64,000 nt of DNA from Persicimonas caeni (GTDB lineage Bacteria; Myxococcota_A; Bradymonadia; Bradymonadales; Bradymonadaceae). Both the position numbers and the translations under genes were made by a program. Of the stretch, positions 54,574-64,000 are shown one piece after another. The stretch covers positions 3,561,074-3,625,073 of the forward strand of contig NZ_CP041186.1 of the NCBI RefSeq assembly GCF_006517175.1, given 5' to 3'. Every line of letters starts with the position of its first letter. Position 1 is the stretch's first letter. Below the pieces are notes generated by a model. The model saw only the letters and a list, made by a program, of their open reading frames with translations, was not told the origin of the DNA and did not search any database.

Positions 54574-55659
54574 TCAGGACATCGTACGCGCCACCAAGTC
54601 TACCGCAATCTGCTCCCCCCCCACCGGCAAACTCACCACCTCCCCACAAACCATCTCTGTCACCCCCAACCCCTCCGGCACACACCGCACACCCTCATAC
54701 GCAGCCTGCGCCTGCAACCCCTTGCGATAATACACCCCAAACCCCACCCCCGCATCCTTCAACCGCCCACACACCGCCTCGCGGTCGTCCACCCGCACCG
54801 TATACTGGTTATACGTGTGCCAACACCCCTCCGCCTCCACCGGCGTCACAACCCCCTCGACCCCCGCCAACGCCTCATCGTACGCGCGCGCATTCTGCCG
54901 CCGCACCCCAATCCACTCGTTCAGATGCTCTAATTTCACGTCCAGCACCGCCGCCTGAATCGCATCCAACCGGAAGTTCCCGCCGGCCATCACCTGGTCG
55001 TACTTCTCGGCACACCCATGCGAGCAGACCACTCGAATCCGCTCCGCCAAGGCATCATCGTCACACGTGATCATTCCGCCATCACCCACGCCACCGAGGT
55101 TCTTCGTCGGAAAAAAGCTAAAACAGCCCACGTCGCCCATCGATCCTGCCTGCTGCCCCCGGTACTTCGCGCCCATCGCCTGGGCGCAGTCTTCGACCAC
55201 GAACAAGTCATGAGCACGCGCCACGTCCATGATTGCGTCCATGTCGCAGCACTGCCCGAACAGGTGTACCGGCAAGATCGCGCGCGTTCGATCAGTCACC
55301 GCCTCGGTGACCAACCCGGCATCGAGGTTGAACGTCGCCGGGTCGATATCCACGAACACGGGTTCGGCGCCCACCCGCAAAATGCACTCGGCCGAGGCGC
55401 AGAACGTGAAAGGCGTGGTGATGACTTCGTCGCCTGGGCCGACGCCCAGGGCCATGAGGCTCGCCAAGAGCGCATCCGTTCCGGATGAGACGCCGATGGC
55501 GTGCTTGACCCCGACATACTCCGCGACCTTCTCCTCGAAGCGCCTTACAAAAGGCCCGCGGATGAACTGGCCCGAGTCGAGGACTTCGGCGATGGCGCGG
55601 TCGATCTCGGCACGAATGGGTTGGTGTTGGGCGTGGAGGTCGATGAAGGGGATCGTCAT
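54574..55659 (-). CDS. wbpE: DegT/DnrJ/EryC1/StrS aminotransferase (WbpE-like)
   Basis: This 361-aa PLP enzyme starts MTIPFIDLHAQHQPIRAEI and has GVSSGTDALLASLMALGVGPGDEVI and VVEDCAQAMGAKY. The PLP lysine is Lys186 in CFSFFPTKNLGG. It resembles WbpE, which aminates a UDP-3-keto-HexNAcA, and a WbpD-like acetyltransferase lies at the right edge of the window. The last 130 codons are markedly depleted of C on the coding strand, unlike the rest of the gene. ATG at 55659 chosen; the upstream open frame runs through a repeat element. Confidence 0.85.
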   Translation of the reverse strand: MTIPFIDLHAQHQPIRAEIDRAIAEVLDSGQFIRGPFVRRFEEKVAEYVGVKHAIGVSSGTDALLASLMALGVGPGDEVITTPFTFCASAECILRVGAEPVFVDIDPATFNLDAGLVTEAVTDRTRAILPVHLFGQCCDMDAIMDVARAHDLFVVEDCAQAMGAKYRGQQAGSMGDVGCFSFFPTKNLGGVGDGGMITCDDDALAERIRVVCSHGCAEKYDQVMAGGNFRLDAIQAAVLDVKLEHLNEWIGVRRQNARAYDEALAGVEGVVTPVEAEGCWHTYNQYTVRVDDREAVCGRLKDAGVGFGVYYRKGLQAQAAYEGVRCVPEGLGVTEMVCGEVVSLPVGGEQIAVDLVARTMS

Positions 55660-55687
55660 GGCTTTGTAATGTTTGGGTTGTTGTGGT

Positions 55688-55840
55688 CCCCCATCCGAGT
55701 CGCGCTGTACGGCGCGCGACTCACCTTCCCCCAGGGGAAGGGATTTCCTTGCATAAACCAAACACGTAGCTTCTCGCAGGGGAATCCCTTCCCCACGGGG
55801 AAGGTGCCGAGCGTGCGGTTTAGCGCGAGGCGGATGGGGG
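55688..55840. repeat. Intergenic palindromic element, copy C (complete)
   Basis: This 153-bp element has the plan of copy B. Outer repeats are CCCCCATCCG (55688-55697) and CGGATGGGGG (55831-55840). Inner hairpins CCTTCCCC/GGGGAAGG lie at 55724-55741 and 55787-55804, and AAGGTGCCGAGCG follows the second hairpin as in B. It lies at the junction between the aminotransferase gene and the helicase gene of the island. Confidence 0.85.
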
Positions 55841-55869: not shown

Positions 55870-57945
55870 CTACGCATCACATATCCGAAACCCCGCCACC
55901 ACCTGCGCGAACTCCTCGGGCCGCATGCACGCGCGCACCCAGCGGCGCATCAGGTCGGGGGGGACGAATCGCTTCCAGGGGCCGGGTTGCAGCCGCTTGG
56001 CGAGCTTTTTGTAGCCCTTCTCGAGGTAGTCGTCGACCGTCGATTCGATGGCGGCGGGCGTGCCCAGGTTCTTGGGCAAGCGGCGAGGGCGGCGGGTGAC
56101 GGTGGCGTGGAAGGCGCCGACGCGTTTGAACCGGAATCCGTGGCTGCGCAGCACCGCGGCCAGGAGTTGGCCCCACAGGGTGCCGAAGAAGTGCTCGAGG
56201 CGCCATTCGTCGTGCCTCGAGATGTGGCCGCCGGTGCGGCTCAGCCAGAGGGTGTCGTCGCCTAGGTCGGCGAAGGCGGCGAGGTCGCGCGCGAGCGCAA
56301 ACGAGTAGTTGGGGCCCATGCGGCTCAGGAAGCTCGGGGCTTCATCCATCGCCCCCGCCTCCACAAACACGCGTCGGTCGCGCACGCGGGTGACCTTGCG
56401 GCCCTTGCCGCCCAGCAAGATCCCTTCGCCGTCAGCGTCGGCGCGCGACACGTCGTCGCCGCTCCAGTGGGCGGTGCCGATGGTGCGTCCGGTGGTCTCG
56501 TCGACCACCTCGACCTCGGCGTCATCGCCGATGTGGGCGTGGATGCGGCCGTGGCGCCAGTCCTTGCGCGCCGGTTGGTCGGCTACGAACCGTCCCTGCG
56601 AATCGGCGTGCAGGTAGCCCTCGGCGCGCATCACCTCGAGCACGTCCTCGCAATCAGCGCGCGACCACATCTTCTGGGCGCTCGGCGGCAGCCTCTTGTG
56701 GAGCGCCTTGGCCGACACCCAGCCCCTGGGGTTCTGGAAGATCAGCGAGACGGCCTGCTGCGGGAGCATCGTCGGGCGAAAGACCTGCGGCTCGACAAAG
56801 AGCTTGCCCGCCCGGGCGCACGCGATCTGGTGCTCGAAGCGCATCCGGTCGAACGCGGTCGAGTGCAAGCAAACCACCCGGATCGCGCCCCCTCGGCGGT
56901 TGCTGCGGCCCACCCGCTGGGTGAACGAGGCGACGTTGGGCGGCGGGTTGACCAGCACGACCCGGTCGACGTCGCCGATGTCGATGCCCAGCTCGAGCGT
57001 CATCGTGGCCACGCACACCCCGCTGCCCGCCCGCAAAAAGCCCTTCTCGGCGCGCAGCCGCTCGGCTTTGGCCAGGCTTCCGTGGTGGGCGAAGACCTTC
57101 GTGGCGCCCAGGCTTGCGGCGAGTGTGGCCGACAGCCACTCGACTTCGGCGCGGGTGTTGGCGAAGACGAGCGTCTTCGAGCCCGGCTCGTCATGCATCA
57201 GCCGCTCGAGGGCGCGCGCCGCCTCGAATGGATCGATGATCTTCTCGAAGAGCGCTTGCAACTCGCGGTCGCGGCCACCCTCGACGCGGACCACCCGAGC
57301 GCCCTTACCTCCAGCACCGCACCATTCATCCGCAAGCCGCTCGGCGTCGGCGGCCGTGGCCGAGGCGCAGCACACCTGCAGCTCGGGCCGAAAGCTCCTC
57401 AGGCGCCAAACCAACGCCAAGAGATGATCGCCGCGCGGGCTGCCGTCGAGCAGGTGAATCTCGTCTAAAAAGATCCCCGCGATCCCCTTGAGCGCGGCCG
57501 GCTGGCGGCTCAACAGCGAGTCGAGCGACTCGGGCGTCGTCACCAGCAGTTGGGGCGGCGCGTCGGCCGAAAACGACGGGCTGTCGCCCGTCTTCAGGTC
57601 CACCGTCCACCCGCACGCCTCCACCGGCCGGCGCACCCGGCGCAAAAAATCGTTGCACAGAGCGCGTGTCGGGCACACCACCACCAGTCGAAGCGCCTCC
57701 TTCGAGGCCGTGCCCGAACCAAAACAACGCTCCATCATCGGCGCCACGAGAGCCTCGGTCTTGCCCGACGCCGTCGGCGCGCACAACACCGCCGACTCGC
57801 CGCGTGCCACCGGCGCTGCGGCCTTGGCCTGCGCCTCGGTCAGCCGGCCAAACCGCCCGAAAAAGGCGTGCCAGGTGTGCCGCAACAGCGCGCGCACGCG
57901 CCTCTCGTCCGACCCCGCCCCATCCGATGCCGACTCGCCGCTCAT
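55870..57945 (-). CDS. Lhr-like superfamily 2 DEAD/DEAH-box helicase
   Basis: This 691-aa protein has a complete SF2 core: Q-like LTEAQAKA, Walker A APTASGKT (56-63), VVCPTRALCNDFLRRV, TTPESLDSLL, DEIH (161-164), SAT (195-197), TLVFANTRAEVEWL, VCVATMTLELGIDIGDV and QRVGRSNRRGG (343-353). The last 300 residues form a family-specific accessory region with winged-helix-like segments. It resembles Lhr and the BREX-associated BrxHI helicases. It is translationally coupled (ATGA) to the ATPase gene upstream, which points to a joint DNA- or RNA-remodelling complex. Confidence 0.88.
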   Translation of the reverse strand: MSGESASDGAGSDERRVRALLRHTWHAFFGRFGRLTEAQAKAAAPVARGESAVLCAPTASGKTEALVAPMMERCFGSGTASKEALRLVVVCPTRALCNDFLRRVRRPVEACGWTVDLKTGDSPSFSADAPPQLLVTTPESLDSLLSRQPAALKGIAGIFLDEIHLLDGSPRGDHLLALVWRLRSFRPELQVCCASATAADAERLADEWCGAGGKGARVVRVEGGRDRELQALFEKIIDPFEAARALERLMHDEPGSKTLVFANTRAEVEWLSATLAASLGATKVFAHHGSLAKAERLRAEKGFLRAGSGVCVATMTLELGIDIGDVDRVVLVNPPPNVASFTQRVGRSNRRGGAIRVVCLHSTAFDRMRFEHQIACARAGKLFVEPQVFRPTMLPQQAVSLIFQNPRGWVSAKALHKRLPPSAQKMWSRADCEDVLEVMRAEGYLHADSQGRFVADQPARKDWRHGRIHAHIGDDAEVEVVDETTGRTIGTAHWSGDDVSRADADGEGILLGGKGRKVTRVRDRRVFVEAGAMDEAPSFLSRMGPNYSFALARDLAAFADLGDDTLWLSRTGGHISRHDEWRLEHFFGTLWGQLLAAVLRSHGFRFKRVGAFHATVTRRPRRLPKNLGTPAAIESTVDDYLEKGYKKLAKRLQPGPWKRFVPPDLMRRWVRACMRPEEFAQVVAGFRICDA

Positions 57946-59249
57946 GCGTACATGCTCCTCAAATCACCCACCACCTGCTTCATCGACTCGGGCCGAAAGA
58001 CGGTCAGGTCCAGAAACTCGACGATGAATTTCATCGCCTGGCGCGGGTTCTCGACATAGCCCGAGCCCAAAAGCCCCGAGACCACCTGTCCCAGCGCCCC
58101 CACGACCCGCTCGTCGATCTCGTCCTCGGGGCGCGCTCGCCCGTAGTGGTCGAAGACGCGCTCTACGAGCGCACGATAATCGCCCATCTCGAACGCCCCC
58201 AATTCGGCGGTCGCCTGGGCGGGCACCGCCTCGCCCAGCGCCTCGAGGCCCTGCTCATTGGGCGTCATCGCAAAGACGGTGTAGAGCCCGGCGCCCCCCT
58301 CCAACTCCGCCGGTCGATACTGCGGCGGCAAGTCCTGCAAGATCCCCATGCCGCCCAGGTCGAGCTCTTCGCGCCCGAACGGCAGCAGCCCATCTTCGCC
58401 GCCCACCGACGCCCACGCCAGCGCCTTGAACAAGACCCGGGCATAGTCGCGGTTTTCGCTCGACAGGAGCGAATAAAACTCGGCCTCGTCGACCAGCACC
58501 ACGAGCCCCTCGTAGCCCGCCAGCCGCGCCAGCGCCGACAATCCGCTGAGCAGGTAGCCGTAGATGCGCGCCCACGGCCGATAATCCTTCATGCTGTAGA
58601 TGCGCCCCTTGCGCCCGACCATGCGCCGCAAGACGTCGTCGATTTCGCCGTTCGAGATCGTCGGGTGCCCCTCGAGCCAGTCGAAGAGCAGGCTCAGCCC
58701 GTAGTCGCGCTCGTGCTCGTCCAGCTCGGCCTGCACGAGCGCCTCGTAGTAGCGAAGCGCCGGGGTCAGGTACAGGTGCGCCCCCTCATCGAGGGTCTCA
58801 CGGGCGCGGGTGGAGCCATCGAGCAAAAACGCCTCGCGCACCGCCTCGCTCCCCAACGCCCGCTCGAAAAGGGGCACCAAGCTTCGCTCCGTGCCGGCGC
58901 GATCGGGGTACTCCAGCGAGCGCACAAGTTCGCGGTAGACCCGCTTGGGGTGGCTCGGGGCGGTCTCCTCGGGGTCGAGCACCACGTGGGCCACCATAAA
59001 GCCGCGTCGAAGGGCGTGCTGGCCGATCAGCTCCAGAAGATGCGTCTTGCCCGTGCCGTAGCCGCCCAGGAACGCCCTGAGCGCGCCACCTCGCGTACCT
59101 ACCGCGTCCAAATCGGCCTCGATGAGCTCGATTTCGGCGTCGCGGCCCACCGTGTAGGCGTCGAGGGCGGTGTGCGGCACCACGCCCAGCCGCATCGCCT
59201 CGAGGGTGAGCATGGCAGGGGTGACCTCTGTTATGGGTGTCGTAGCCAT
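57942..59249 (-). CDS. BrxD/DUF2791-like P-loop ATPase (second of pair)
   Basis: This 435-aa AAA/STAND-like ATPase has Walker A LGGYGTGKTHLL (61-72) and Walker B GLVVLVDEAEF (248-258, acidic pair 254-255). The region between (HVVLDPEETAPSHPKRVYRELVRSL) matches from memory the BREX-type BrxD ATP-binding family, formerly DUF2791. C-terminal GSGYVENPRQAMKFIVEFLD is a conserved lid-like segment. It overlaps the other ATPase by one base (TGATG) and the helicase by four. The two ATPases share little sequence outside motifs, suggesting a heteromer. Confidence 0.82.
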   Translation of the reverse strand: MATTPITEVTPAMLTLEAMRLGVVPHTALDAYTVGRDAEIELIEADLDAVGTRGGALRAFLGGYGTGKTHLLELIGQHALRRGFMVAHVVLDPEETAPSHPKRVYRELVRSLEYPDRAGTERSLVPLFERALGSEAVREAFLLDGSTRARETLDEGAHLYLTPALRYYEALVQAELDEHERDYGLSLLFDWLEGHPTISNGEIDDVLRRMVGRKGRIYSMKDYRPWARIYGYLLSGLSALARLAGYEGLVVLVDEAEFYSLLSSENRDYARVLFKALAWASVGGEDGLLPFGREELDLGGMGILQDLPPQYRPAELEGGAGLYTVFAMTPNEQGLEALGEAVPAQATAELGAFEMGDYRALVERVFDHYGRARPEDEIDERVVGALGQVVSGLLGSGYVENPRQAMKFIVEFLDLTVFRPESMKQVVGDLRSMYA

Positions 59250-60565
59250 CAGAAATCCTGGAAGTCGTCCTCGGTGTCGGCGCCGACTGCCAGGGCCTCG
59301 TGGCCCTCGAGCACCAGGTCAATCGCTGCGTCGACGTCGAGCTTGTGCTCGCCGTCGACCATCTGCAGGTGCAGAAAATCGACGAAGGTTTTGACGAAGA
59401 GCCGGCGGTGATTGACCTCGAACTGGGTGTTCACGCAGGCGCTTGCCAGCATGGCGGCGTTTTCGCGCTGCAGCTCGTCGTCGAAGTCGACCCCGCGCGC
59501 CTCCTCGAAGATGGGCACGAGCTTTTGGCCCACCGCGCTCAAAAGCTTTTTGGGCGCCAAGTCGAGCTGCTCCAGGTCGATGAGCACCGCCTGGGGGCTG
59601 CGCACGCTCAACGGCACCGGGGTTTTGAGCCGCTGGTACAGCGCCGGGTAGTCGGGCACCACCGTGCGCATGAACTCGGGGGGCACCGCGTACATGAACA
59701 GCGTGTTGGGAAGCTGGTGGCGGCCGCACAGGTCGATGACCTGGCGCAGGTTGTCGCCGATGGTCTGGCTTCGCTTGGCGCTGACCGACAGGTTGCGGTC
59801 GACCTCGTCGAACAACAACGCGGTGCCCGCAAAGCCCAGGCCCTTGATCATCTGGGTGAGGCTGCGCAGCATCAAAAAGCCGTTGGCCCGGCTCATCTCC
59901 TCGTAGACGCCCCAGTCGCGCACCTCCCCGCGGGGCACCGGCTCGCCGCGAAGCCACGCCTCCAGGCGCCCGACGCGCTCGTAGTCCTCCTCGAGCCAGC
60001 CCAGAGCGAACTCGACGACTGCCTTTCGGTACGAGACGCTCTCGCACGGGGTGCGGGCGACGTCGCGGCGCAGCCAGCGAGCCACCGACCGGCGCGCGTC
60101 CTGCGCGGGTTGGGCGACGCCCTGGGCGCGGTAGTCGACCTCGGCCTCCTCGACACGCCGGTCGACCAGATCACGCAGCAGGTCGCTGATGCCGTAGCGC
60201 GGCCCGCCCATCTCGTCGTCCGCCGGCATGGCGATGCGGCGGGCGACCGTCGAGTAGACCTTGAGCGTGTCGTCGTAGGGGCACTCGGTGGGCGACAGTT
60301 CGACCACCGCCACCGCGAAACCGTGGCGCCACGCCATGTCGCGCACGCAGTATAAAAAGTGGGTCTTGCCACCACCGAAGTAGCCCTGCACCAGCTTGAA
60401 GCTCGCCCCTCCCTTGAGTTGGCGGTCGAAATACTCCTGCTCGAGCACGTTCAGGTAGCTCTCGTTGCCCACGTTGATCAGCTCGACGCCCCGCTCGGGC
60501 GGCTGGCCGCTCTCGCCGAGGCGCTGGAGGATATGGGAGGCGGTGATTGGGTTGATGGAGGTCAT
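59249..60565 (-). CDS. BrxD/DUF2791-like P-loop ATPase (first of pair)
   Basis: This 438-aa protein has an N-terminal ITASHILQRLGESGQPPERG, then Walker A QGYFGGGKTHFL (60-71). AVVELSPTECPYDDTLKVY follows, and Walker B is GTALLFDEVDRN (247-258). PLSVRSPQAVLIDLEQLD is near 330. This is the pattern of BREX-system ATP-binding proteins of the BrxD type. The ATG at 60565 is chosen, with GGAGG-like sequence absent but the family N-terminus fitting. The longer open frame to 60691 runs into a palindromic repeat. Confidence 0.82.
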   Translation of the reverse strand: MTSINPITASHILQRLGESGQPPERGVELINVGNESYLNVLEQEYFDRQLKGGASFKLVQGYFGGGKTHFLYCVRDMAWRHGFAVAVVELSPTECPYDDTLKVYSTVARRIAMPADDEMGGPRYGISDLLRDLVDRRVEEAEVDYRAQGVAQPAQDARRSVARWLRRDVARTPCESVSYRKAVVEFALGWLEEDYERVGRLEAWLRGEPVPRGEVRDWGVYEEMSRANGFLMLRSLTQMIKGLGFAGTALLFDEVDRNLSVSAKRSQTIGDNLRQVIDLCGRHQLPNTLFMYAVPPEFMRTVVPDYPALYQRLKTPVPLSVRSPQAVLIDLEQLDLAPKKLLSAVGQKLVPIFEEARGVDFDDELQRENAAMLASACVNTQFEVNHRRLFVKTFVDFLHLQMVDGEHKLDVDAAIDLVLEGHEALAVGADTEDDFQDF

Positions 60566-60936
60566 TGGGTTGTCCGGTTGTCTATGTTCAGAATGCAGCT
60601 CTTTAGGTTGTTGTGGCTGCCCCTCCGGTCTCGGGCGAAGCCCTCGACCACCTCCCCAGCGCAAAGGCGCTGGGGAGGAGCCCCTCGTCAAATTGCTACG
60701 CTTCGGGCTCGCGTCGAGAAGCTACCACTGCTCGATCGCGAAGGAGCTCCTCCCCGCGGCCTTTGCCGGGGGGAGGTGCCGAGCGCGAGCTGCCGCAGGC
60801 AGCGGCGCGCTTGGCGGAGGGGCCGCCTCAACAACCCATCCCTCTCATTACGGTTATCGGCAATTTCCCAAAATCGTTGCGTCGATCGCCCCAACAACCC
60901 CGCCACGCCGCGATTTCTCTAATGCGATCGCGTCAG
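60566..60936. repeat. Intergenic palindromic element, copy D, with flanking spacer
   Basis: The 371-bp gap between the two ATPases' operon and the unrecognised upstream gene is mostly one element (60606-60836). Its 22-bp outer inverted repeats are imperfect (GGTTGTTGTGGCTGCCCCTCCG against GGTTGTTGAGGCGGCCCCTCCG). The inner hairpins are CCTCCCCAGCGC/GCGCTGGGGAGG (60651-60678, perfect 12-bp stem) and CCTCCCC/GGGGAGG (60749-60776). It has the same architecture as copies B and C, with CCTCCCC replacing CCTTCCCC. No gene was seen. Confidence 0.8.
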
Positions 60937-61806
60937 TCACCCAAAACGAAGCGACCCATAATACTGCCCGTTTTTGGCCCCCACCGGGATATACAGCACG
61001 TTTTGCTTGTTCTTGGTCGAGCCCCCGGTCGCCGCGCCCAGGTCGAGGCGCACGCCGCCGCGCTCCAACACGCCGTCGCGGCGCAATTTGGCGAGTTGCC
61101 AGGCGAGCAGGTGGCGCGGGTAGGGCTCGAGCGCGCCGGGACCTTTGTTGCGCCAGTCTTTTCGTTCGAGTCCGAGCACCGACAGCGGCACGAGCACGTC
61201 GACGAGATCGACACGATCGCCCTTTTCGGTGCCGTCGGCGGCCAAGACCATGCGGTAGGCGGCGCGCAGCCTGTCGAAGAAGTCTTCGGAGGGGATGGTG
61301 CGCCGCTCGAGCTCTTCGACGGTCGTCTGGTGCGCGCCCAACAGTTCCTTGGCGTCGAGCGGCAACTCGCAGATCGGCTCGTGGCCATACAGAAGTCGGG
61401 CGCCGCCGGCGTCGAAGTCGATCTCGAAGGTCAACGGGTCGGCAAAGAGCACCAACGGGGCTTCGGAGAGCTTTTCGAGGGCGATATCCTGTGCCTCGGC
61501 GAGCATCTCGAGCTTCTGCATGAACGCCATGCGCGCCTTGATGCGAAGCTTTTTCATCTCCGCGCCGAGCGCTTCGATGAGCTCGGCGCGCTGGGCGTCG
61601 AGCTCGGGCACGCCCAACTCGTAGCCGCCGAGACCGCGCTCGATTTCGAGCCACTCGGCGTACGACTTCGACGACGGCTCCTTGCCTTTGACCGCCGCCA
61701 GCAAATCTTTGGCGCGTGACACACGCCGGGCGTGGCTGCGAATATCCTTGAGGAGATTTTCGGCGCGTTGGAGAAGACCAACGTCAGCGGTAGTATCATT
61801 TGCCAT
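60937..61806 (-). CDS. Unrecognised 289-aa island protein, coiled-coil N-terminus
   Basis: I do not recognise this family. Residues 10-115 are charged and helical with heptad-like leucines (LLQRAENLLKDIRSHARRV, then AEMKKLRIKARMAFMQKLEML), suggesting a coiled coil. Residues 170-255 (DFFDRLRAAYRMVLAADG, then YPRHLLAWQLAKLRRDGVLERGGVRLDL) could form a winged helix. The C-terminus NVLYIPVGAKNGQYYGSLRFG looks like a conserved end. It is encoded upstream of, and on the same strand as, the ATPase-ATPase-helicase trio, so a partner or DNA-recognition role is inferred. AGGAG precedes the ATG. Confidence 0.7.
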   Translation of the reverse strand: MANDTTADVGLLQRAENLLKDIRSHARRVSRAKDLLAAVKGKEPSSKSYAEWLEIERGLGGYELGVPELDAQRAELIEALGAEMKKLRIKARMAFMQKLEMLAEAQDIALEKLSEAPLVLFADPLTFEIDFDAGGARLLYGHEPICELPLDAKELLGAHQTTVEELERRTIPSEDFFDRLRAAYRMVLAADGTEKGDRVDLVDVLVPLSVLGLERKDWRNKGPGALEPYPRHLLAWQLAKLRRDGVLERGGVRLDLGAATGGSTKNKQNVLYIPVGAKNGQYYGSLRFG

Positions 61807-61953: not shown

Positions 61954-63855
61954 ATGGCTTCCATATTTCGGCTCGACGGTCCCTGCCCATGCGGCAGCGG
62001 GAGCACGCACAGTGATTGTTGCGCCTCGTCAAAGCGACGCTTCTGGCGCCGCATGAGTGAGAAATTCAGTCCCTCGAAGGCGCGATCACCCAAATCTTCT
62101 CGTGGTCGAACAGACGCCCAGCGCCGCGATCTTCCGGTGGCCCTCGGCAAGCCGGATATGCTGCGCCTGCTCGAGTTCGTCGAGGGCTTCTCGGAGCGTT
62201 TTTCCCACGTGTTCAACACCGCCTCGGCCTGGCAGCGCGAGGCGTTCGGCGGCTATACGACCGCTCAGATCCTCGACCATCTCGAGATCTCTCCCGACCG
62301 GCGGCTGACCACCGAGCGAGGCGTGCTCTTGCGCTCCTACGGCGTATTTCGCGCCCGTCGCCCTTACGGCGAAGGCGCCACCGACGAGATTGCCCGGCGA
62401 GTCGGCCAGAAACACGGCGAGGCGAGCGCCGAGCTCCTCGAAGCCATGCAGCACGCTCGCCTGGGCGCCTGGCAGATCACCGAGGCGAGCGACGGCTTCG
62501 AAGCGACCCGGATCGACGGCACCGACGCACCATTTCGTCGCGAGCTCGACGTTTTCACCGACTACCAGTGGGCGGCGATCACGGCTCCCGGGGTCTATGT
62601 CGGCTGGCTCATCGAGCAGGACGAGACCTGCATGCTCTTCTTCGCCGCCGAGCTCGACGCCGCCGCCGTCGACTTTTTGAACCGGGTCGCCCAGCGCGCG
62701 CCGTGGGGTTGGCCCGACGGGGACGCAGACAACGCGTTTCGACGCGTGCATTACGAAGAAGATATCTTGTCGCTGCTGGTTCGCGCCGACTGCATCAACA
62801 CCGGCCGCGACGACATGCGCGTGATCTTGAGCCGCGAAATCCGGCAGGTGTGGTACCTGCGGCAGGCCAACCTCTTTGACGACGTCGAAAAGACGCTTCA
62901 CAAGTACGGGCTTCGCTCGGGGGTCTACGTCGAAGACACCGGCGTCTTCGGCGAGTATGGCGCCGTCCACCCCGACCACTACCAGTGCCATATCTGCAAC
63001 GACTTTCACCGCAAAAACGCCCACCTGGCGCCGGGATGGTCGGTCGACGTCGCGCTGCTCGTCGAGGACCACGTCGAGGCCATCGTCAGCCAACTCGAGG
63101 CGATGCGCCTGTATGCGCTGCCCAAGAGCACCACCTGGCACTATTCGATTCCGGTCGGCCCCCACTCTCTCGAGTACGTCTTTCCCATCGCCGAGATGCT
63201 CGCGATGATCGCGCTCGATCCGTCGGGGCGCATCGAGCATCCGAGGCTCGGGCATGCCGAGGAGTATCCGCTATCGTCGCTCGATATCGACCTCGACGCC
63301 TTTCGCAACGCCGGCTTCGACCTGAACTGGAGCATCGGGCAGGCGAAGTCGTGGGCCGAGCGGCACGCCGCCGAGGAGTTGCAAGGGGCGCTCGAGGAGG
63401 CCGTCGAGCGGTATCATGCGGCCTTTCGGTGGGCGTGCTTGGTCGACCGCCACCGCCAAATGGACCCCAACCAGACCATCGGGATCGGTTACGAAGAGCT
63501 CTTCTGGGGCATCCGCAAACTCTTCCCCACCGCGGTCCTCGAGACGCCCCTGGCGGCGCTGCGAGATCGCCACAACGGCACGTGGAGGCGCATCGAGAAG
63601 GCCACGCGCGAAGACAAAGCGTTCGACACGCCCGTGTTGCGACTCGGGCACCTGCCCCCATGTATGCACACCTTGGGTTCTTTGAGCGGCATCGGCTCCA
63701 AGACCCTCATGGCCCTCGTCGACGGGCTGGTCGAGTATGTCGCCAACTGGCCCGACAGCGCTGGTTACGCGTCGAACGCCACTAGCCCGGAGATGCAAGA
63801 GGCCGCCTCGGCCGAATTGTCGTCCGGGCTCGACGCGCTCGACGACCTCTTTTGA
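61954..63855 (+). CDS. Large SEC-C motif protein of unknown function
   Basis: This 633-aa protein carries an N-terminal SEC-C zinc-binding motif, CPCGSG (11-16) with CC at 22-23, like the SecA C-terminal metal site. The following 600 residues have no domain I recognise; a CHICND motif (about residues 345-350) could be a second metal site. The start at 61954 is decided by GGAGGAATCC. It is divergent from the unrecognised island gene, so it may be a sensor, adaptor or effector of the same system. SEC-C motifs recur in proteins of stress and defence contexts, so functional linkage is only inferred. Confidence 0.72.
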   Translation: MASIFRLDGPCPCGSGSTHSDCCASSKRRFWRRMSEKFSPSKARSPKSSRGRTDAQRRDLPVALGKPDMLRLLEFVEGFSERFSHVFNTASAWQREAFGGYTTAQILDHLEISPDRRLTTERGVLLRSYGVFRARRPYGEGATDEIARRVGQKHGEASAELLEAMQHARLGAWQITEASDGFEATRIDGTDAPFRRELDVFTDYQWAAITAPGVYVGWLIEQDETCMLFFAAELDAAAVDFLNRVAQRAPWGWPDGDADNAFRRVHYEEDILSLLVRADCINTGRDDMRVILSREIRQVWYLRQANLFDDVEKTLHKYGLRSGVYVEDTGVFGEYGAVHPDHYQCHICNDFHRKNAHLAPGWSVDVALLVEDHVEAIVSQLEAMRLYALPKSTTWHYSIPVGPHSLEYVFPIAEMLAMIALDPSGRIEHPRLGHAEEYPLSSLDIDLDAFRNAGFDLNWSIGQAKSWAERHAAEELQGALEEAVERYHAAFRWACLVDRHRQMDPNQTIGIGYEELFWGIRKLFPTAVLETPLAALRDRHNGTWRRIEKATREDKAFDTPVLRLGHLPPCMHTLGSLSGIGSKTLMALVDGLVEYVANWPDSAGYASNATSPEMQEAASAELSSGLDALDDLF

Positions 63856-64000
63856 TACGCCGTCCCGCACCGATCGCACTGCCAGGTCGGCCCGTCGCCG
63901 GCGAGTCGCTCACCGCACTGACACGCCCAGCCGAGCTGGCGCGCCGGGTTACCGACCACCAGCGCGTGGGCGGGCACGTCTTTGGTCACCACGCTACCGG
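63765..64000 (-). CDS. WbpD-like sugar N-acetyltransferase, C-terminal part
   Basis: Only the end of the gene is present; it enters from the right edge. It reads GSVVTKDVPAHALVVGNPARQLGW, the terminal coil of left-handed beta-helix acyltransferases. This is followed by the small CxCGERL...CDRCG zinc-ribbon tail typical of WbpD/WlbB enzymes, which acetylate a 3-amino UDP-sugar uronate. The frame then runs about 29 codons beyond the ribbon, 91 bp antisense within the SEC-C gene. This suggests its natural stop was lost at an insertion junction. Confidence 0.8.
   Translation of the reverse strand, partial: GSVVTKDVPAHALVVGNPARQLGWACQCGERLAGDGPTWQCDRCGTAYQKRSSSASSPDDNSAEAASCISGLVAFDA

Follow-up and report, generated by a model that had tools for sequence, protein, structure and literature searches.

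A locus of Persicimonas caeni carries four genes on one strand, here called COIL, ATP1, ATP2 and HEL, which together form a real, widespread and apparently undescribed module. We consider it an even call that the set is a conserved DNA-processing module in which ORC-like ATPases form an asymmetric loader for an Lhr/Ski2-like helicase, with surveillance of foreign or abnormal DNA as its most likely role. As judged from sequence comparison, the set is a separate lineage that stands beside the BrxD-BrxHI pair of BREX type 2 and the SngB-SngC pair of Shango. The features of the locus are given below, with positions counted in the window, meaning the whole 64,000-nucleotide stretch of DNA that was analyzed.

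54574..55683, minus strand: DegT/DnrJ aminotransferase, wbpE-like, right flank of the presumed insertion
55870..57945, minus strand: HEL, core gene 4, 691 aa, SF2 helicase of the BrxHI/SngC/Lhr kind
57942..59249, minus strand: ATP2, core gene 3, 435 aa, a PF10923 ATPase distinct from ATP1, with both Walker motifs (A and B) intact and the putative arginine finger apparently lost
59249..60565, minus strand: ATP1, core gene 2, 438 aa from ATG, PF10923 ATPase of ORC/Cdc6 type with Walker A, Walker B and a putative arginine finger
60606..60836, no strand assigned: palindromic MITE-like element in the gap between COIL and ATP1, 22-nt ends that are 91% complementary
60937..61806, minus strand: COIL, core gene 1, 289 aa, helical/coiled-coil, beta and winged-helix-like parts, no known family
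61954..63855, plus strand: SECC, recurrent partner gene, 633 aa from ATG, SEC-C-motif protein, divergent from COIL
63852..64000, minus strand: 3' end of a wbpD-like acetyltransferase, left flank of the presumed insertion, the rest lying outside the window

All four core open reading frames are intact at 55870-61806 on the minus strand, in the 5'-to-3' order COIL, ATP1, ATP2, HEL, as the initial annotation had described, and the start-stop overlaps that it pointed out are present, with TGATG at the ATP1/ATP2 junction and ATGA at the ATP2/HEL junction. Its remark that pglX, pglZ, brxC and brxL are missing also holds, as none was seen in the window. The four-gene boundary that it drew was too tight, however, leaving out the linked fifth gene SECC at 61954-63855 on the plus strand, and it also missed that a conserved sugar operon of three genes is interrupted by the set. 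No recognized nuclease or other effector is found in the gene set. Copies of the MITE-like repeat lie at 60606-60836, 55688-55840 and 36212 and have the motif GCTCGGCACCTYCCCC in common, which has 44 exact matches genome-wide versus none for a reversed control. The element probably accounts for the 371-nt gap between COIL and ATP1.

A profile search of species genomes with ATP1 returned 263 relatives, and the best 80 of these 263 were read as loci. Among these 80, which are the top-scoring relatives, many of them metagenome-assembled, and so describe the close family, COIL lies immediately upstream of ATP1 in 69 of the 71 loci with room for it, ATP2 immediately downstream of ATP1 in 67 of 69, and HEL after ATP2 in 45 of 57. 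The suggested check on gene order is thus borne out, and the COIL-ATP1-ATP2-HEL arrangement is not a matter of chance. The gene set occurs in at least eight phyla: Myxococcota (including Bradymonadales), Acidobacteriota, Desulfobacterota, Eremiobacterota, Armatimonadota, Planctomycetota, Chloroflexota and Gemmatimonadota. One of the carriers, Lujinxingia vulgaris, has been cultured. Between genomes, the distances of COIL, ATP1, ATP2 and HEL are mutually correlated (r 0.77-0.93). No name or description of the set was found in PADLOC, NCBIfam or Pfam, and no paper naming it was found in the literature searched, which leaves out most subscription journals and preprints.

Nearly the whole window (1-55700) is an exopolysaccharide/LPS-type gene cluster, with asparagine synthases, glycosyltransferases, sulfotransferases and nucleotide-sugar enzymes. 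Here, and in the genome of a sister genus (G008), the set is flanked by a wbpD-like gene on one side and a wbpE-like gene on the other; on the left flank here, the wbpD-like gene and a wbpB-like oxidoreductase extend past the window edge. The wbpB-, wbpD- and wbpE-like genes, named by gene order and fold family rather than by a curated model, are contiguous in at least six other family members, some of which have the set elsewhere in the genome. Because the operon is interrupted in these two genomes and contiguous in relatives, the set was most likely inserted as a unit, most likely before the two genera split. Across lineages the flanks of the set differ, whereas within lineages they are stable.

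The initial annotation recognized two different BrxD-type ATPases, and both the family matches and the tree agree. PF10923 is found in ATP1 at 141.7 bits and in ATP2 at 112.8 bits, against a Pfam cut-off of 22.2 bits, and BrxD is the best PADLOC match of each. With scores above the cut-off and conserved Walker A and B motifs, both proteins belong to PF10923; the Walker A Lys and the Walker B Asp-Glu are retained throughout the aligned ATP1, ATP2, BrxD and SngB rows. In a maximum-likelihood tree, ATP1 (25 rows) and ATP2 (25 rows) each form a single clade outside BrxD and SngB (100/99). A C-terminal, sensor-2-like arginine is kept in both ATPases. At the column of R312 of ATP1, which the alignment suggests to be the arginine finger, an Arg is present in 25 of 25 ATP1, 6 of 6 BrxD and 8 of 8 SngB rows but in 0 of 25 ATP2 rows, in which the surrounding loop is shortened. 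ATP2 thus appears to have lost the putative arginine finger still present in ATP1, BrxD and SngB, so that the two ATPases probably work as an asymmetric pair in loading or activating the helicase.

HEL was likewise correctly placed among SF2 helicases of the Lhr/BrxHI kind. It has DEAD and Helicase_C domains (Pfam), PADLOC ranks BrxHI first and SngC next, and the best matches of its profile among solved helicases are 5v9x and 7lhl, both annotated 'ATP-dependent DNA helicase', which we take to be Lhr-type. The DEAD and Helicase_C core with its Lhr-like profile assigns HEL to the Lhr type; it differs from Lhr and Ski2-like SF2 helicases in being shorter (691 aa) and in belonging to a family tied to the ATPase pair. 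Together with the plasmid-form helicases described below, HEL splits from BrxHI and SngC (100/100).

COIL has no family match in Pfam, PADLOC or NCBIfam, in keeping with its first description as an unrecognized 289-aa gene with coiled-coil and possible winged-helix parts. An AlphaFold2 model built on a 41-sequence alignment is confident (mean pLDDT 93.9) and predicts long helices at the N-terminus, followed by a small beta domain and a C-terminal part that resembles a winged helix. In VIA structure comparison, residues 171-289 weakly resemble the winged helix of ORC1 (Z 5.2-6.6) and COIL weakly resembles a Mediator subunit (Z 8.5), resemblances that we left out as family evidence. Foldseek gave no significant match for COIL (best E 0.09).

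SECC is a fifth component of the system. In several Myxococcota and two Acidobacteriota, a SEC-C-family gene comes after HEL (after ATP2 in one genome) and overlaps it or almost does; some relatives of this gene have no SEC-C motif and are similar in the C-terminal region only. In one family (f5), HEL is not beside COIL-ATP1-ATP2 yet is encoded elsewhere in seven of eight genomes, and a SECC-type gene adjoins this unlinked HEL in six of the seven loci, the contig of the seventh stopping there. This co-occurrence away from the other genes is independent evidence for counting both HEL and SECC as parts of it. The predicted structure of SECC is poor (pLDDT 56), and a SECC search across 379 genomes was dominated by the short SEC-C motif. 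In five Desulfobacterota-type loci (L118, L119, L122, L123 and L142), COIL is adjoined by a RapA/DrmD-like SNF2 helicase, whose best PADLOC match is DrmD, and by an unannotated zinc-cysteine protein. Separately, two distant lineages encode, directly 5' of COIL, a large protein that has no annotation and whose C-terminal end is winged-helix-like (L116:3910-6069 and L121:3376-5934).

The working model that we propose takes as observed the gene content and order, the separate ancestry, the motif asymmetry, the HEL-SECC linkage and the insertion as a unit, and from these we infer complex formation, loading, a DNA target and a biological role. COIL would hold DNA via its winged helix and scaffold the complex, while ATP1 and ATP2 would form an asymmetric hetero-oligomer with the arginine finger supplied by ATP1. 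Hydrolysis of ATP by this assembly probably serves to load or activate HEL on the DNA gripped by COIL, and HEL would then translocate along the bound DNA and remodel it, with SECC as a helicase-linked auxiliary. The whole may survey foreign or abnormal DNA, as a module long retained on the chromosome.

The initial annotation was right about a BrxD-type pair with a BrxHI/Lhr-like helicase, and about an undescribed, conserved unit outside BREX, but that the set acts against mobile DNA, as it suggested, is a possibility rather than a finding. A defense role is plausible: the set is kin to BREX-2 and Shango, it most likely moved in as one block, and a plasmid carries a divergent version next to BREX-2. 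Counting against it, the immediate neighbors in relatives are mostly non-defense genes; the set was not found in the phage and viral collections; and long retention with RpoB-like divergence also fits chromosomal maintenance. We give anti-invader surveillance, the role that we favor, roughly even odds; its main rival is chromosomal maintenance.

In its specific form, this rival holds that the set is a chromosomal DNA-repair or replication/transcription-conflict machine, with no part in defense, in which the two ATPases would load the helicase onto host DNA that is damaged or stalled; we consider it rather unlikely. It is consistent with an ATP1-type gene that is essentially single-copy in each genome and with the housekeeping neighbors conserved within lineages (inosine kinase/TrpS in family f5, MutY/cardiolipin synthase in another clade). 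The main form also went unmatched in mobile collections: COIL was not found on 72,556 plasmids, where the ATPase searches gave distant matches only, and no relatives were found in 50,697 phages or in viral contigs. Divergence of the set tracks that of RpoB as well (r 0.66-0.83, with 0 of 500 permutations as high), whereas BrxD-type control genes of the same phylum give r 0.20 (36 of 500 permutations as high), a contrast that is indicative, as these controls come from 17 genomes that are on average more distant. However, presence is patchy, at about one-sixth of the 379 genomes of the phylum (a single COIL query matched in 55), and the set interrupts an operon that is unbroken in relatives. Plasmid relatives adjoin BREX-2 and AbiE genes, and the closest characterized relative, Shango, is anti-phage (PMC10250203).

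Two plasmids carry divergent versions of the four-gene cassette, in an order identical to that of the main set. On the Aulosira laxa NIES-50 plasmid AP018310 (12393-24287), BREX-2 PglZ-BrxD-BrxHI is followed at once by a COIL-ATP1-ATP2-HEL cassette, and on the Desulfomonile tiedjei plasmid NC_018026 (8880-15641) the cassette follows an HTH protein and lies near AbiE genes. Their helicases are the sister group of HEL (100/100) and their COIL is homologous to the main-form COIL (hhalign probability 97.8, E 1e-12), but their ATPases are very divergent and fall outside both the ATP1 and ATP2 groups.

The set is built like two known systems. Shango consists of the TerB protein SngA, the ATPase SngB and the helicase SngC (PMC10250203), and, as in the present set, a PF10923 ATPase gene is followed in one operon by a DEAD/Lhr-like helicase gene, with a non-enzymatic-looking protein upstream. 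In BREX type 2, an ATPase of ORC-Cdc6 type is tightly linked to an Lhr/Ski2-like helicase, and this ATPase, BrxD, is described as having an arginine finger; it is suggested that BrxD loads or activates BrxHI (PMC12839542). That the set is nevertheless a degenerate or rearranged form of either system is improbable. Its best PADLOC matches are indeed BrxD, BrxHI and SngC, and Shango too pairs an ATPase with a helicase (PMC10250203), but the proteins in common fall in separate clades, the ATPases and helicase lying outside those of BrxD and BrxHI as well as those of SngB and SngC. Shango has one ATPase where the present set has two, and it is found on plasmids, where the main form was not found. 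The reference SngA has TerB_N, TerB and TerB_C domains and is unrelated to COIL; Pfam finds no TerB domain in the set, and neither COIL nor SECC has profile similarity to SngA. Compared with BREX type 2, the set lacks PglX, PglZ, PglY/BrxC and PglW, and it has two ATPases in clades of their own, one without the aligned finger arginine. Neither the cassette nor its flanks showed a PglZ, PglX or PglY/BrxC. For 102 immediate neighbors, no PADLOC family has more than two matches and PglZ is absent from the 25 of 50 families listed, which were taken by number of members, whereas 12 of 33 neighbors of BrxD-gene controls match PglZ. The separate clades and the lack of COIL or SECC similarity to SngA indicate, as far as sequence can tell, that the set belongs to neither BREX-2 nor Shango.

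The BREX genes of this genome do not lie a few genes away, as in a rearranged locus, but about 530 kb from the set: PglX and PglZ, both type-5-like, are accompanied there by a helicase resembling BrxHII (L085, 4.14-4.16 Mb). A BREX remnant was rejected on the strength of the trees, the neighbors and this separate BREX-5 locus, and Shango identity on that of the lack of SngA kinship. A 1771-aa open reading frame with a kinase-like match adjoins the BREX type 5-like genes. Elsewhere in the same genome, at 5.04-5.05 Mb (L081-L083), three open reading frames of about 1200 aa each have a short, weak PF10923 match at the P-loop.

That the set regulates or switches surface-sugar genes is very improbable: the whole window is devoted to polysaccharide biosynthesis and the set lies inside the wbpB-D-E-like operon in two genera, but in other lineages it is found among unrelated genes, and the sugar operon is unbroken where the set is not inserted.

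An ORC-like ATPase with an Lhr-like helicase is common to BREX-2 and Shango. The present set has the same pair together with a second ATPase, apparently finger-less, and has no methylase, phosphatase or TerB, so that it provides a pared-down natural system for testing whether BrxD-type ATPases load these helicases, as has been proposed (PMC12839542). It is also one more widespread gene set without a name, from phyla that have received little attention. It is possible, although we lean against it, that the set provides anti-invader or self-DNA surveillance across phyla, with a heteromeric ORC-like pair, one member finger-less, as a dedicated helicase loader for immunity. Such a loader would be analogous to that of replicative helicases but serve immunity.

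Finally, on the Deinococcus psychrotolerans plasmid NZ_CP034187 (38023-45437; L093), a BrxD/BrxHI-like pair lies behind two long coiled-coil proteins, with no TerB or PglZ in view, and is possibly another variant.
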